Translations under genes and position numbers: made by a program
Assembly: GCA_028284195.1 (NCBI GenBank)
Contig: JANQSE010000006.1
Coordinates: 558,001 to 622,000 of the forward strand
DNA length: 64,000 nucleotides
Source: Balneola sp.
GTDB taxonomy: Bacteria > Bacteroidota > Rhodothermia > Balneolales > Balneolaceae
Direction of reading: 5' to 3'
Shown: piece by piece, positions 50,860-64,000 of the stretch
How positions within the stretch are numbered: position 1 is the first letter of the stretch
Layout of the letters: every line of letters starts with the position of its first letter
Notes under the pieces: model-generated
Told to the model about the DNA's origin: nothing
The model's input: only the letters and a program-made list of their open reading frames with translations
Database searches by the model: none

Positions 50860-52794
50860 ATGAGAACATACAGTAAAGCGCTTGGTTTGTGCGCATTTAT
50901 CTTAACACTTTGTTCATCGTTTATTTTAGCACAGACAAAAAACGATAAAACTACAGTAGGCACTGTTGGTAAACAGAAAATTACCTACGGAGAATTAAAG
51001 AAGAACATTAATCAATCAAGTACTTCAACCTACTCTCTCTCTGAATTGGAAGAGTTTTTACCTATTTACCTTGACTATATAGCCAAAATACAATTTGCCA
51101 AAAATGAAGGTATTTTCAACAACGAAACCCTGAACGCCGAACTGGATGTGTATTCCAAACAAGCAGCTTACTCCTATTGGCTGGATAACAAGATTAAACC
51201 AACCGAGTTTCAGAAATACTATAATCGTGCAACAACCGAGATCAAAAGCCAGCATTTATTAATATCCATTCCCAAAAACGCACCCCCTGAAGATACCCTT
51301 GCTGCTTATAAAAAGCTTATTGAGGCCCGCAATAAGTTCCTTAGCGGATCAACAATTGCGAAGCTTGATCCTGAATACTCAAGCAAACAAAATGGTCGGT
51401 CTATGGGTGGAGATTTACCTTGGTTTAGTGTTGGGACCACGGTAAAAGAATTTGAAGATGTTATTTATACATTAAAAGCTGGTGACATCTCTATGCCCTT
51501 TAGAACTCAATTTGGATACCATATCGTTTATGTTCAGGATATCAGAGAAAGAACTCCGGCCCGAAATGTATCGCATATATTTACTCGAGCTAATGTAAAT
51601 GGTTCGAAAGAAAAAATAGACTCAGCTTTTGATGCACTTAAGCAAGGCCGCCCTTGGTATGAGGTTGTAACAGAATTTTCTGATGATAATCTTTCTGTTC
51701 AAAAAGGAGGAAATATTGGCTGGGTAAGCTATGGCCGGTTTAATTCAGATTTTGTTGACAAAATTATGCAGTTAGATCCTGATTCAAAGTACTCAGAACC
51801 TATTGCAACAGTATATGGATATCACATATTTAAACTTGATTCTGTTCAAAGCTTTAAATCCGCGCAGCAAAAAGAAGAGTTTTATACGAAGCAGTTTTTA
51901 GACTCACCAAATTATAAGAAGAGTAACACCTTTGTAACGAATTGGTTTAAAAAAGAATACAAAAGCTCTGTTAATAAAGAAGTACTAGCTTTGTACGAAG
52001 ACTTTATAGAATCAAAGGGAACAATAACTATAAACGAGATAGCCGAACCTACCTTCTCCAACAAAATCATTTATCAATTCAACAACTATTCTTTCAGTGT
52101 TTCAGATTTTCATAAATATCTTATAAAAGCTCATACAACCGTAGAAGCAAAAAATTACCAGAATAATTGGATCGATGAATTCATAACAGCTTCCATTGAT
52201 AGCAAGATCACTGAAATGGCAGTACAAGAGTTTGATGGCTTTCAATCAGAAATTGATAATTACAGAAAAGGTCTGGCCGTGTTTCAGGTAAATGACCAAC
52301 ACCTGTGGAACGCAGAGACTGTTGATTCCACACTGTTGATGAAAAGGTTTAATTCAAACAGAGATCAATACACCTACCCTACCCGTTATTATTACCACCT
52401 CATTAGTGCCCGGCAGGACACAAACCTGCAAAAAGCTGTTGATTTTATACAGGAAGGCAATCATCCGGATAGCATACGAACTTTATACAAAAGTATAGCT
52501 GTTACCCACGATTCGACAGGCATATTTACCGATAAACCATTCAATAAGCTTCAGACAATGCAGGAAAAAAGCTTCTCAGAAGTATTTAACTACAAAAATA
52601 GAAATACCCGATTTTACCTAAACAAAATATTACCTGCACGCAGAATGACTTTTGAAGAAGCATTTGCAAAGCTCTTAACCGAATACCAACCTGAACGAGA
52701 GAAAAAATGGATGGACAAACTTAGAAAAAGATATAAAGTAAAAGCCGATTTTAAGAAATTGAAAAAAGCTTATAACAAAGATACCGGTTTATAA
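50860..52794 (+). CDS. Periplasmic PpiC/SurA-type peptidyl-prolyl isomerase (two parvulin domains)
   Basis: 644 residues with a Sec signal peptide (about 8-25, ending ILAQ). A SurA-like N-terminal helical part has the VGTVGKQKITYGELKK motif. Two parvulin domains follow: about 128-232 (SQHLLISIPKNAP, MGGDLPWFSVG, FGYHIVYVQ) and about 237-335 (VSHIFTRA, GGNIGWVSYGRF, YGYHIFKLD). The 300-residue C-terminal extension is unassigned. It is the first of three foldase-type genes in a row, so it probably assists outer-membrane protein folding. Confidence 0.88.
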   Translation: MRTYSKALGLCAFILTLCSSFILAQTKNDKTTVGTVGKQKITYGELKKNINQSSTSTYSLSELEEFLPIYLDYIAKIQFAKNEGIFNNETLNAELDVYSKQAAYSYWLDNKIKPTEFQKYYNRATTEIKSQHLLISIPKNAPPEDTLAAYKKLIEARNKFLSGSTIAKLDPEYSSKQNGRSMGGDLPWFSVGTTVKEFEDVIYTLKAGDISMPFRTQFGYHIVYVQDIRERTPARNVSHIFTRANVNGSKEKIDSAFDALKQGRPWYEVVTEFSDDNLSVQKGGNIGWVSYGRFNSDFVDKIMQLDPDSKYSEPIATVYGYHIFKLDSVQSFKSAQQKEEFYTKQFLDSPNYKKSNTFVTNWFKKEYKSSVNKEVLALYEDFIESKGTITINEIAEPTFSNKIIYQFNNYSFSVSDFHKYLIKAHTTVEAKNYQNNWIDEFITASIDSKITEMAVQEFDGFQSEIDNYRKGLAVFQVNDQHLWNAETVDSTLLMKRFNSNRDQYTYPTRYYYHLISARQDTNLQKAVDFIQEGNHPDSIRTLYKSIAVTHDSTGIFTDKPFNKLQTMQEKSFSEVFNYKNRNTRFYLNKILPARRMTFEEAFAKLLTEYQPEREKKWMDKLRKRYKVKADFKKLKKAYNKDTGL

Positions 52795-52795
52795 C

Positions 52796-53692
52796 ATGGC
52801 CAGATTTTTATTTATCGCTCTAGGCATGCTGTTTTTTATGCAATGCTCACCAAAAGCAGTAGATAAGGAAACTGTATATGCACAAGTTGGTTCTGAAACA
52901 CTTAGCCTTCAAGAAGCTAAGGCGCAAATACCGGCTACCATATTTCAACGAGATAGTATTGCTGCTTACGAAACGTTTAAAGAAGATTGGATTCAGAACC
53001 AGCTAATACTCCGGGAAATCGAGCGGCTTGATATCGAAAATCTAACCGAGGTACAACAAAAGTTAAAGCGAGTAAAAACGGAGATGCTGCTTGCCAGTTT
53101 CCAGGATGCTATCATGAGTTCATTGTCAAACGAGAGCGAAGTAACCACCGAAGAAGCACGCAATTATTATCAGAAGAACAAAGAAAAATTTTTACTGGAT
53201 GAAAGGTTTATTCGTTTCAGGCATCTGGTTGCCACTACCCGTCAAAATGCAGAACTGGCAAAACGTGATTTAATGAGAGGATTAAGTTGGGAAAATGTAG
53301 CAAACAAATATTCATTAAATCCTGAATTAAGGATCAGAGATGCTTCACGATTTTGGCCTGCCTCTATCGCTTTGAGTGATTATGGAGTGTTAAACAGATA
53401 TTTGCAGGTCATTGGGGTTTCAGAAATTTCCATCATTGAAAATATAAATGGGCAATTTCACTTCGTTCAACTTCTCGAAGAAAAAACGGAAGGTGAACAT
53501 CCTGAATTAGAATGGCTTATTGAACAGGTTAGGCAATGGTTAATCCTTGAAAAAAAACGAATTGCTTACAATACCTACGTAAAGAATCTTTATCTTGCGG
53601 CACAAGCCAATAATGAAATACAGATTTATAACGTTCTTCCTGAACAATCAAATCAGATAAATATTCCTGATTCATCGAACTCAAATAAATAA
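52796..53692 (+). CDS. SurA-like periplasmic lipoprotein
   Basis: 298 residues. The lipobox FMQC gives a lipidated C17. YAQVGSETLSLQEAKAQIPA is a SurA N-terminal-type start, followed by helices and a degenerate parvulin-like segment (EERFIRFRHLVATTR-like, FHFVQLLEE). No clean rotamase active site is visible, so it is more likely a chaperone than an isomerase. It sits 1 bp after the previous foldase and overlaps surA by one base. Confidence 0.78.
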   Translation: MARFLFIALGMLFFMQCSPKAVDKETVYAQVGSETLSLQEAKAQIPATIFQRDSIAAYETFKEDWIQNQLILREIERLDIENLTEVQQKLKRVKTEMLLASFQDAIMSSLSNESEVTTEEARNYYQKNKEKFLLDERFIRFRHLVATTRQNAELAKRDLMRGLSWENVANKYSLNPELRIRDASRFWPASIALSDYGVLNRYLQVIGVSEISIIENINGQFHFVQLLEEKTEGEHPELEWLIEQVRQWLILEKKRIAYNTYVKNLYLAAQANNEIQIYNVLPEQSNQINIPDSSNSNK

Positions 53693-55056
53693 TGAAGAAA
53701 ATTACACTTTTAATCCTGCTCTTTTTTATCGCAGTCCCGTCTCTTTTTGCACAATCTAAACCTGCCCCAGCCGACAGAATAGTAGTTTTGGTTAACAACC
53801 AGGCAATATTAAAATCAGATATCGATCAAAACGTTGCTGATTACATACGCCAAGCCCAATTTAACAGGCAGAATATTCCATTCACCAAAGAACTGTGGTA
53901 CACTTTTCTTGAAGCTGAGATCGATAACAAAATTCTGTTAGAGAAGGCTAAGATAGATTCTGTAATTATCTCGGATGAACAGGTTAATCTGGCAATGGAT
54001 AGTCGTATTAGCCAAATAATACAGCAAGCTGGAAGCGAAAAAGCTGTAGAAGAAGCATTTGGAAAATCTATTATACAATTAAAAGCAGATTTCAGAGAAA
54101 ATTTCCGGGAGCAAATGACTGCAAGCGAAGTGCAATCACAAAAAATGCGCTCTATAACTATTAGCAGGCCAGAAGTTCAAGAGTTTTTTGACTCTATTCC
54201 TAAAGATTCGCTTCCAACCATTCCCGAACAGGTGGCATTATCTCATATTGTAAAACTTCCTAAACCGAAAACAGATGCTAAAGACGATGCTTTTCAACTT
54301 GCTTCTTCATTGCGTGATTCTATTATCAACAAACAAGCAACATTTGAAGAATTAGCAAGACGCCATGGAATGGACAATACAGCTCAAAGAGGTGGTAAGC
54401 TTCCTAAGATGGGGTTAAATGAATTAGTAGCTGAATATTCTGCCGCTGCTGCTGCCTTACAAGAAAATCAAATCTCAGAAGTAGTAGAAACAGAATTTGG
54501 ATTTCATGTGATTCGGCTGGATAAACGTGTTGGTGATCAAATTGAGACCAGCCATATTCTAATTCGGGTTGATTCCGAACAGCTGGATACTGATGCATCT
54601 ATTTTTGAGCTAAATGCAATTCGTGATAGTCTTTTGAACGACCCCTCCCTTCTGTTTTTAACTATGGCCAGGCGTCACAGCGATGATCCTTCAACTGCCA
54701 GTTCCGGTGGTAAAATTGTAGACCCACAAACACAAGAGCGATTAATTCCACTTACCCGATTAGATCCAGCCCTATATAGAATCGCTTTGCTAATGGATGA
54801 AGTAGGGCAAATTTCAGAACCAAAGCCATTTAATCCAAATGGAGCAAATGCCGGAAAAGCCTACCGAATCGTTCGTTTGGATGAACAAATTCCCGAGCAC
54901 ACAGCAAGTATGGAAATGGACTATGAACGGTTAAAATCTATAGCCTTGCAGCAAAAACAAAACCTGGAATACCAGAAATGGCTAAAAGAGCTGCGAAATG
55001 ATATTTATATAGAATACAGAATTCCAAAAATGGATTTGGGAGTAGCCCAGAAATGA
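53692..55056 (+). CDS. surA: Periplasmic chaperone SurA
   Basis: 454 residues. Signal peptide ends SLFAQ. The N-terminal chaperone domain starts DRIVVLVNNQAILKSDIDQ, the SurA signature. Two parvulin domains follow: VALSHIVKLPKP through FGFHVIRLDKR, and ETSHILIRVD through YRIVRLDEQ. A C-terminal helix returns to the core. The length matches the SurA of Bacteroidota. It overlaps the previous gene by one base and moxR by four, so the five genes from 50860 to 58131 are probably one operon. Confidence 0.9.
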   Translation: MKKITLLILLFFIAVPSLFAQSKPAPADRIVVLVNNQAILKSDIDQNVADYIRQAQFNRQNIPFTKELWYTFLEAEIDNKILLEKAKIDSVIISDEQVNLAMDSRISQIIQQAGSEKAVEEAFGKSIIQLKADFRENFREQMTASEVQSQKMRSITISRPEVQEFFDSIPKDSLPTIPEQVALSHIVKLPKPKTDAKDDAFQLASSLRDSIINKQATFEELARRHGMDNTAQRGGKLPKMGLNELVAEYSAAAAALQENQISEVVETEFGFHVIRLDKRVGDQIETSHILIRVDSEQLDTDASIFELNAIRDSLLNDPSLLFLTMARRHSDDPSTASSGGKIVDPQTQERLIPLTRLDPALYRIALLMDEVGQISEPKPFNPNGANAGKAYRIVRLDEQIPEHTASMEMDYERLKSIALQQKQNLEYQKWLKELRNDIYIEYRIPKMDLGVAQK

Positions 55057-61567: not shown

Positions 61568-64000
61568 TTACTTACTAAAAATAAGTTTCATCATGTAACT
61601 AAATGAAGGAATCTCCGCACCATTTTTATAATTAACCGCTCCAATTTCGAAAGCAATCTTCCATTGCCTTAAAAGAGTTTTTACTGCAAATAGCAAACCA
61701 TGTTTTGGATCATAAATATTGGTTGATTCTGAGGTAACTCCGTTAACTTCCAATACTTTTATATCCTCACCTTTTCTTAATGCTTCTTCGGAAGGAACTT
61801 TTATATCATACCGCCCGAAATAAAATCCTTCAAAGCGTTTGCTAATCCTATCCATTTTTTCCACCAATGCTTTGGTGATAAGGTGAGAACCATCTAAGAA
61901 TAAAGAACCTCTAGAATGTGTGCCCAATTCTACAAGTTCTATTTTTTTTCCTGATTCCGGTATCTCAAAAAGATCGTGGGCATGCTTATCAAAATGAACT
62001 TGTGCCATATATACCGCTCTGGGATCTTTTAATATCAATTGCTCTAAAGTATGCTTTCCATCTCCTGTAACAACGATACCTTCCTTTTTTGTGATAGAGA
62101 AAATTTGACCTTTAACCTGATTGGGATATCGGTAATAAAAAATTCCATACTCTTCACCTGGTACAAATTCTTGAAGAATATGGTGTTCATTAATATTTGT
62201 TAGTCCATTTATTAATTGGTTTTGCGAACGAATAATTTGAACTCCTTTCCCCCTTTCCCCTTTATCAGGTTTTAAGACTATCGGGAATTCAAGGCTAAAG
62301 CGTTCCATAAATCTCTCCGCTTCTGAAGCAAGTTCTTTGTAACTTTTTTTAGAATCGATGAGATAAAACCGAGGTAAAAATTCCCGGGATTTAAACTGCT
62401 CAAGTATATTGTATTTCGATTCCCCAATGAAGCCTCCTTCTTCTATAGCCGGATTTGCTGCCGTAACTACTGTGATTTTTTTGAAACGAACCCACAAATA
62501 CAAAGAATAGAATACAACCGGTATATAAAGAATTTTTGGGGGCCAAAACTCCCATTTCATAAAACGCTGAAATTTACCGTAGAGTAAACGCCTCCCTTTA
62601 AAAGTAAAAAGCGGAATCACTACTTTAAGAACCATAAAGGCCAAAAAAACTACAACGATTAACACCAACAACGCATATTCCTGATAGATTGAGAAATAGT
62701 AGATTAACTCCTTCCCCAAAAACATAGCCGCACTTACCAGCATTGGAGTCCACAGTAAAGAAGCTATTCCAAAATATGCGATAAACATGGTAAAGCTGGC
62801 TCCTATTACCCCCGCACTGAAATAGGTAGGAAATCGAGTACCAGGTATAAAACGACTGATTAATATGATTACCGGGCCTTTCACTTTAAACCATTCATTA
62901 GACCTTTCAATATCTTTTTCGTTCATAAACCATTTAATAGGTGCTTTATGTGCTGCATTTTCTCCCAACCATCGGCCTGCCAGATAAATCAGAATGTCTC
63001 CAATAAAAATACCTAAAAAACTAGCTGTTACAGCAGGCAGAAATCCCAACAAGCCCCGGGCAGCCATCAAACCGGCCCCAATACAAGCAAGGTCTTCGGA
63101 AATAAACGTACTAAAAATAATAAGGAGCATAAGGCCGATAAGCAGCCAGCCTTCTGCCTCAATTATCCTTGAGTTAGAAAACGGTAATAAGGATTTGATT
63201 TTAGCTAACACTGTAGTTTTTTGAGCTTGAGAAGGCGTTAGTAAAAACTCAATATTCGATGCTAAATAAGCTTCATTGTTATCAAATTTTTGGTAATTGC
63301 TGTATGCGATCAATCTGTGTATCTCAATAGCAGCATTTAATTGGTTTTTAGTGCTGTTTGAAAAGTTATTGATCAAAGTGGATATTTCTAACTTTCTTAA
63401 TTCGTTTCTAAGAAGTCTTTTGTCAGTGTCCAAGTGTGCCCGGAAAATCTTATACCCAAAGCCAGAGTTTGCAACTGCTCCAAAATCCGGAGTAAAGTTC
63501 TCTAAAACCCATGCTGTTATTGAAGCCGCTCCATAAACACCTTTGTTCAATTGGTATCCACCTAAAAGCTCATATTCTATAATACCGCCCGGATCGTTTA
63601 GTATTAATGATCTGGTGCTCAATTTTTTCTGGTTTATTAACCACGTTGCTATTACACTACCAAAACCTTCGGCAACAATATGAACAGAATCTATCCCTGC
63701 TACCTCTAATTCTTTGAGTATAGCCTCGGCCTGCGCCCTTGCCGAATATATGTTACTATCAGGTTTAAAGTGCTTAAAATTGACTGTATACACCTTAAAA
63801 TGATCAAAAAGAGCACCCAATAATTCTTTTTGATTTACTTCGGAGTTAAGATCTCCCAAAAAAAGAATTACCTGACCTGACGTTAAGCTATCGGAATGCC
63901 TACTTAATAGTGGTTTTTCTTTGTCAATTTGTAGCTCAAATACAAAAGAAATGAAAAGCAAAATCAAGTAGAGCAGAAAAACTAACCTCCACCCTTTCAT
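61568..64000 (-). CDS. Fusion: dead alpha/beta-hydrolase, DedA-type membrane domain, ATP-grasp domain
   Basis: 810 residues; the ATG is the last codon in the window, so the true start could lie beyond. After one N-terminal helix (about 6-21), residues 40-210 look like an alpha/beta-hydrolase: VILFLGDLNSE and the elbow VAEGFGS, where Gly112 stands at the nucleophile serine position. About five membrane helices follow (285-470), with the VTT/DedA signature SRFIPGTRFP (382-391). A further helix lies at about 490-505. The C-terminal 300 residues are an ATP-grasp enzyme: VLKPDKGERGKG with K577, LQEFVPGEEYG and the metal site E751/N753 in LEVNGVTSEST. It probably ligates an amino acid or carboxylate to a membrane-bound acceptor. 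The function is inferred, not known. Confidence 0.85.
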   Translation of the reverse strand: MKGWRLVFLLYLILLFISFVFELQIDKEKPLLSRHSDSLTSGQVILFLGDLNSEVNQKELLGALFDHFKVYTVNFKHFKPDSNIYSARAQAEAILKELEVAGIDSVHIVAEGFGSVIATWLINQKKLSTRSLILNDPGGIIEYELLGGYQLNKGVYGAASITAWVLENFTPDFGAVANSGFGYKIFRAHLDTDKRLLRNELRKLEISTLINNFSNSTKNQLNAAIEIHRLIAYSNYQKFDNNEAYLASNIEFLLTPSQAQKTTVLAKIKSLLPFSNSRIIEAEGWLLIGLMLLIIFSTFISEDLACIGAGLMAARGLLGFLPAVTASFLGIFIGDILIYLAGRWLGENAAHKAPIKWFMNEKDIERSNEWFKVKGPVIILISRFIPGTRFPTYFSAGVIGASFTMFIAYFGIASLLWTPMLVSAAMFLGKELIYYFSIYQEYALLVLIVVVFLAFMVLKVVIPLFTFKGRRLLYGKFQRFMKWEFWPPKILYIPVVFYSLYLWVRFKKITVVTAANPAIEEGGFIGESKYNILEQFKSREFLPRFYLIDSKKSYKELASEAERFMERFSLEFPIVLKPDKGERGKGVQIIRSQNQLINGLTNINEHHILQEFVPGEEYGIFYYRYPNQVKGQIFSITKKEGIVVTGDGKHTLEQLILKDPRAVYMAQVHFDKHAHDLFEIPESGKKIELVELGTHSRGSLFLDGSHLITKALVEKMDRISKRFEGFYFGRYDIKVPSEEALRKGEDIKVLEVNGVTSESTNIYDPKHGLLFAVKTLLRQWKIAFEIGAVNYKNGAEIPSFSYMMKLIFSK

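Follow-up and report, generated by a model that had tools for sequence, protein, structure and literature searches.

The gene at the end of the 64,000-nucleotide stretch of Balneola sp. DNA analysed here (the window) codes for a single polypeptide in which a decayed alpha/beta-hydrolase-fold domain, a DedA/VTT membrane region and an intact ATP-grasp ligase follow one another. With a probability of roughly 0.45, this fusion is proposed to combine a ligase with a lipid translocator and to act in the metabolism of acyloxyacyl aminolipids (ornithine-lipid type). Domain order, residue conservation, operon, co-occurrence and fold class were observed directly. The parts of the gene locate as follows:

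61568–64000, minus strand: part of the fusion gene inside the window, an open frame that continues to a start codon 24 bases outside the window end
63926–63982, minus strand: N-terminal transmembrane anchor, window residues 7–25 (hydropathy 2.46 over 19 residues)
63227–63925, minus strand: alpha/beta-hydrolase-fold domain, residues 26–258, catalytically decayed (fold match; triad missing)
63665–63667, minus strand: Gly codon at the nucleophile-elbow position, residue 112 (alignment with L004, GxSxG)
62591–63157, minus strand: DedA/VTT membrane region, residues 282–470 (VTT_dom profile and invariant columns)
62729–63070, minus strand: Pfam VTT_dom match, residues 311–424 (63.3 bits)
62483–62554, minus strand: WEFW hydrophobic helix ahead of the ATP-grasp, residues 483–506 (stand-alone ligases have it too)
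62405–62455, minus strand: NPxIxxGGFxGESK motif, residues 516–532 (peculiar to this ATP-grasp ligase family)
61622–62404, minus strand: ATP-grasp catalytic domain, residues 533–793, intact (model, fold match, invariant residues)

The complete gene codes for 818 aa (L002:9569-12025), the window omitting its first 8 codons, and the starts of homologues align with this extended start position. Four Lys/Arg residues precede the anchor helix, which is placed at 3–25 in a full-length model of moderate quality (pLDDT 74, pTM 0.48). A three-part polypeptide of hydrolase, VTT/DedA and ATP-grasp, as read in the first-pass annotation, was confirmed by fold, Pfam and residue evidence. The fusion is intact as a single frame of 806–906 aa in 24 other Balneolaceae genomes (43–57 % identity), and comparable fusions occur in other phyla. 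Chance or an assembly artefact as origin of the fusion is ruled out by these intact copies in many genomes and phyla. The same annotation knew of no described system with this domain order; likewise, the literature searched on ornithine lipids or aminolipids with ATP-grasp or DedA proteins yielded no description of the fusion.

The membrane region belongs to the DedA/VTT family (VTT_dom 63.3 bits versus a Pfam cut-off of 33.9). The RFIPGTR signature noted at first reading is present, both of its Arg residues being invariant across 21 relatives, in which E302, D303, D335, R383 and R389 are all conserved without exception. None of the solved structures compared by sequence matched this region. 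Some short relatives within the family (L031-L038 and other two-domain proteins) consist of hydrolase-VTT or of VTT alone and adjoin an OlsA-like gene; mostly they are found without OlsB or ligase, the DedA part thus retaining a PlsC-type partner.

The ATP-grasp domain, likewise described as intact beforehand, proved to be so. K577, E617, D732, E751 and N753 are invariant among relatives (we take K577 to be the ATP-binding Lys and D732, E751 and N753 to bind Mg), and the Pfam RimK profile, the only curated family model to reach its cut-off for this part, scores 22.2 bits versus 21 over residues 556–614. Modelled alone (pLDDT 86, pTM 0.85), the domain matches best the cyanophycin synthetase CphA (Z 16.5, rmsd 5.0, 268 residues aligned), followed by GshF (Z 15.0), carbamoyl-phosphate synthetase (14.5), LysX/ArgX (14.0), RimK (13.5) and Ddl (about 13). 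Apart from carbamoyl-phosphate synthetase, every one of these nearest folds is an amide-forming amino-acid ligase. The ligase shares the ATP-grasp catalytic residues with CphA, GshF, LysX/ArgX, RimK and Ddl; it differs from them by an identity of only 16–18 % to the best match and by its own membrane helix and NPxIxxGGxxxESK motif ahead of the domain, and it stays far below the NCBIfam equivalog cut-off for cyanophycin synthetase (37.4 bits versus 850).

On sequence grounds, the ATP-grasp is assigned to a distinct, membrane-anchored ligase family, which is characterized by the motifs NPxIxxGG/ESK, KPD, GDG, FGRxD and ExNG (with small variations) and by a hydrophobic stretch that forms a helix ahead of the ligase even in the stand-alone form. 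Members occur as hydrolase-VTT-ligase, as VTT-ligase or as ligase alone, and the stand-alone and plasmid-borne proteins are 31–40 % identical to the ligase of the window. They were detected in 33 of 147 genomes of an Acidobacterial class, 21 of 195 of a Verrucomicrobial phylum sample and 63 of 344 of a Bacteroidota phylum sample (Balneolaceae included). With 1 of 297 genomes positive, Desulfobacterota were not accepted as a host group: the isolated case, L004, is a 7 kb Desulfobacterales MAG contig for which transfer or mis-binning is possible. Plasmid-borne copies were found in Azospirillum, Paracoccus, Salinivibrio, Vibrio, Photobacterium, Variovorax and Komagataeibacter. Ligase, alpha/beta hydrolase and VTT protein are encoded by three separate adjacent genes in Paracoccus. 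The family may have gone unnoticed because a stand-alone Bacteroidota ligase, the one protein tested, has no Pfam match whatever. The ligases of the Salinivibrio and Komagataeibacter plasmids (L168, L170) are labelled D-alanine--D-alanine ligase, probably a misannotation.

Such labels, together with the Ddl fold matches and with UptA as the best NCBIfam match of the DedA part (E 2.4e-14), would fit a cell-wall precursor enzyme, in which a UptA-like undecaprenyl-phosphate translocase is joined to a D-Ala-D-Ala-like ligase. This function, one of two considered in the first-pass annotation, is very improbable. Both equivalog models remain far below their cut-offs (UptA 53.9 bits versus 250, Ddl 14.8 versus 404), and the recurrent neighbours mapped include no cell-wall gene, while Ols genes are constant partners of the fused form. 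The DedA part thus resembles UptA in its above-cut-off VTT profile and in its invariant acidic and Arg signature residues; it differs from UptA in its low equivalog score, in being fused on both sides and in its tie to aminolipid genes.

The fusion is the last gene of a same-strand operon comprising, in this order, an olsB-like (262 aa), an olsA-like (285 aa) and a DinB-like gene (185 aa), all three located upstream and outside the window; the genes overlap or stand 6 bases apart. The olsB-like product, a GNAT protein with an Acetyltransf_5 domain, most resembles OlsB (E 8e-41, versus 8e-7 for GlsB), and the olsA-like product is closest to OlsA (E 4.5e-35), though the model scores (OlsB 140.5 versus 350, GlsB 28.4, OlsA 121.1 versus 300) lie below cut-off and do not fix the amino acid. 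The order OlsB-OlsA-DinB-fusion recurs outside Balneolaceae (L080-L082, L159, L161-L165), and in L004 (Desulfobacterales) and L011 (Verrucomicrobia) an OlsF-type PlsC+GNAT synthase replaces OlsBA as neighbour. Since OlsB-like and OlsA-like genes share the operon and this is conserved in several phyla, the lipid part of the earlier idea, an enzyme modifying a lipid head group or a cell-wall precursor, received strong but circumstantial support, and its cell-wall part none. Adjacency to Ols genes changes at least 11 times on the 78-row ligase tree, on which an independent-pair test had too few pairs.

Further genes were noted in these surroundings. In an Acidobacterial genome (L083), DinB and the fusion are separated by two extra same-strand genes of 298 and 430 aa. 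Adjoining the ols operon and divergent from it is a gene for a separate, soluble alpha/beta hydrolase (L002:14248-15036, plus strand), which keeps this place in several relatives, including OlsB-less ones (L003, L031-L037). Within the window, three successive genes for secreted peptidyl-prolyl isomerase-like proteins (SurA/PpiC type, judged by eye; 50860–55056, plus strand) precede a MoxR-type AAA gene at 55053.

Co-occurrence points in the same direction as the operon. In Balneolaceae, the ligase is present in 26 of 92 genomes, with OlsB in 26 of 26 carriers versus 29 of 66 non-carriers (Fisher 1.2e-7, phylogeny ignored). Three genomes from carrier genera (G005, G062, G066) have neither ligase nor OlsB, and shared descent alone therefore does not explain the link. 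OlsB lies near a VTT gene with the ligase absent in three others (G019, G070, G076), which makes the ligase look like an add-on downstream of OlsB. PF13444 was found in 10 of 10 Acidobacterial ligase carriers sampled versus 3 of 10 non-carriers, and in 7 of 7 Verrucomicrobial carriers sampled versus 2 of 6. The lipid context of the fused clade is well supported.

Stand-alone ligases of Bacteroidota are embedded differently: none of 20 loci lies beside Ols genes, the neighbours being DinB (14 loci), NRDE (13) and DoxX (9). Of all observations, this weighs most against the proposed function. A recurrent cluster of DoxX, DinB, NRDE/TANGO2 and stand-alone ATP-grasp (L127-L142), frequently accompanied by a YHS-domain or DM13-domain protein, was encountered in this phylum, and no paper naming it was found. 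It is conceivable, if somewhat unlikely, that the ligase serves another, older pathway together with DinB, NRDE (TANGO2) and DoxX, whose product would be a different N-acyl amino acid or lipid, or a small molecule; the proximity of fused ligases to Ols genes would then be secondary. The set of VTT, ligase, DinB and NRDE genes in Salinivibrio and the presence of DinB in the operon of the window's fusion agree with such a pathway, as does the detection of GH3 proteins in all 25 stand-alone carriers sampled; PF13444 is wholly absent from 13 of 37 genomes with a stand-alone ligase, and the eight PF13444-negative carriers tested all possess GH3. GH3 is the OlsH family, and its proteins can make N-acyl amino acids (PMC12493201). 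On the other hand, the fused clade is repeatedly tied to OlsB, OlsA or OlsF, DinB and NRDE may contribute accessory steps to the same lipid pathway, and PF13444 is also overrepresented in genomes with stand-alone ligases (24 of 37 carriers versus 91 of 281 ligase-free Bacteroidota genomes, p 2e-4, a value confounded by phylogeny). Across an 80-genome panel, PF13444 or GH3 occurs in 42 of 42 carriers versus 16 of 38 non-carriers. Overall, the fused clade is firmly linked to aminolipids, the other ligases only statistically.

For the hydrolase part, residues 26–258 have no Pfam match; their model nonetheless matches alpha/beta hydrolases (Z up to 17.8, 190 residues aligned, rmsd 3.7), and the corresponding region of the relative L004 matches Abhydrolase_1 at 96 bits. 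At the nucleophile position of the window protein stands a Gly (window residue 112, VAEGFGSV), as the first-pass annotation had observed; of the triad, Asp and His are missing as well. Ser-Asp-His is kept in 23 of 39 aligned proteins, namely two separate Paracoccus hydrolases and 21 fusions (Acidobacteria, L004, L009, L159-L165 and some Verrucomicrobia). None of the Balneolaceae members examined has the nucleophile Ser; genus g7 of this family retains Asp and His, and the window's genus no triad residue. The Verrucomicrobial L152, L154 and L155 also carry Gly, probably through the same loss, because their ligases group with those of Balneolaceae in the tree, whereas in L157 and L158 the nucleophile was lost separately. 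Since most fusions outside Balneolaceae keep the triad, the alignment indicates that Gly at the elbow is a derived, lineage-specific decay and not the defining state of the family. An OlsI-type O-acyltransferase role for the hydrolase found no support: OlsA is present, and OlsI is merely a weak match to a different neighbour gene.

From these data we infer topology, substrate, reaction, direction and transport. Positive charges ahead of the first helix and behind the last DedA helix suggest that the hydrolase lies outside and the ATP-grasp inside. The OlsB-like and OlsA-like enzymes would produce an amino-acid lipid that is acylated on both N and O and keeps its carboxylate free, a natural partner of an amide-forming amino-acid ligase. 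On the cytoplasmic side, the membrane-anchored ATP-grasp would turn this carboxylate into an acyl phosphate and couple an amine to it. The lipid would be the carboxylate donor, by analogy with CphA, GshF, RimK and LysX, where the larger substrate supplies the carboxylate, and attachment of a small amine (amino acid or taurine) would create a two-unit head group. The DedA domain may then carry the product to the outer leaflet. In fusions that keep the triad, the external hydrolase may trim this product or turn it over; in the genus of the window protein, the hydrolase would be a non-catalytic remnant.

The same olsB-olsA-DinB-fusion operon is also compatible with the opposite polarity, in which the ATP-grasp would activate a free amino acid at its carboxylate and attach it to the side-chain amine of an ornithine-type lipid. 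Ornithine lipid carries a free delta-amine, and ATP-grasp ligases can in principle activate either partner. This polarity is nevertheless improbable in view of the carboxylate source in the four ligases named above, and a lipid built on glycine, or on any other residue lacking a side-chain amine, would make it impossible.

The closest analogue in layout is MprF/LpiA plus AcvB: head-group modification inside, movement out and a hydrolase outside. MprF modifies inner-leaflet lipids and moves them out (PMC11980842), and the LpiA-AcvB operon encodes a periplasmic alpha/beta hydrolase controlling the product (PMC13197417). The domains are unrelated, since MprF uses aminoacyl-tRNA and phosphatidylglycerol, as opposed to ATP-grasp, DedA and an Ols lipid in the fusion, and a Pfam scan of the fusion to E 1 gave VTT and ATP-grasp families alone, with no MprF-type synthase or flippase domain. 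The fusion may hence be viewed as a tRNA-independent counterpart of MprF/LpiA plus AcvB, by analogy in layout and not by homology. With the OlsBA, OlsF and OlsH-OlsI pathways it shares its operon partners (OlsB-like and OlsA-like, or OlsF-like); no described one of them has a ligase-DedA fusion.

In this lipid class, Ser-Gly and taurine-ornithine are among the known head groups (PMC12493201). A published domain search for the Ser-adding enzyme of glycine lipids, which covered the ATP-grasp Pfam PF02222, reportedly left that enzyme unidentified (PMC12746155), and no enzyme named for the taurine step was found in the literature searched. As a general answer to the missing Ser ligase of Bacteroides, the present family was rejected (of 17 genomes whose PF13444 match is weak and GlsB-like, only 1 carries the ligase); since genomes with GlsB-like matches rarely carry the ligase, the Bacteroides case is probably not solved by it. 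Komagataeibacter, with a plasmid-borne ligase, and Gluconobacter belong to one family, and the ornithine lipid of the latter is cited for taurine transfer, which serves as a lead only.

New in the present analysis are the position of the fusion at the operon end, its co-occurrence with OlsB, the distinct ligase family, the intact triad elsewhere and the amino-acid-ligase folds. Tentatively, and short of even odds, the NPxIxxGGxxxESK ATP-grasps may represent undescribed, widespread membrane-anchored amide ligases building two-unit (peptide-like or tauro-) aminolipid head groups, the fused form being the first combined maker and DedA-type exporter. The ligase family provides a concrete gene candidate for two-part head-group ligation in OlsB or OlsF lineages. 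If the proposal is true, a DedA protein would gain a specific cargo, physically joined to the maker of that cargo, and the fusion would be an independent solution to the task of MprF.
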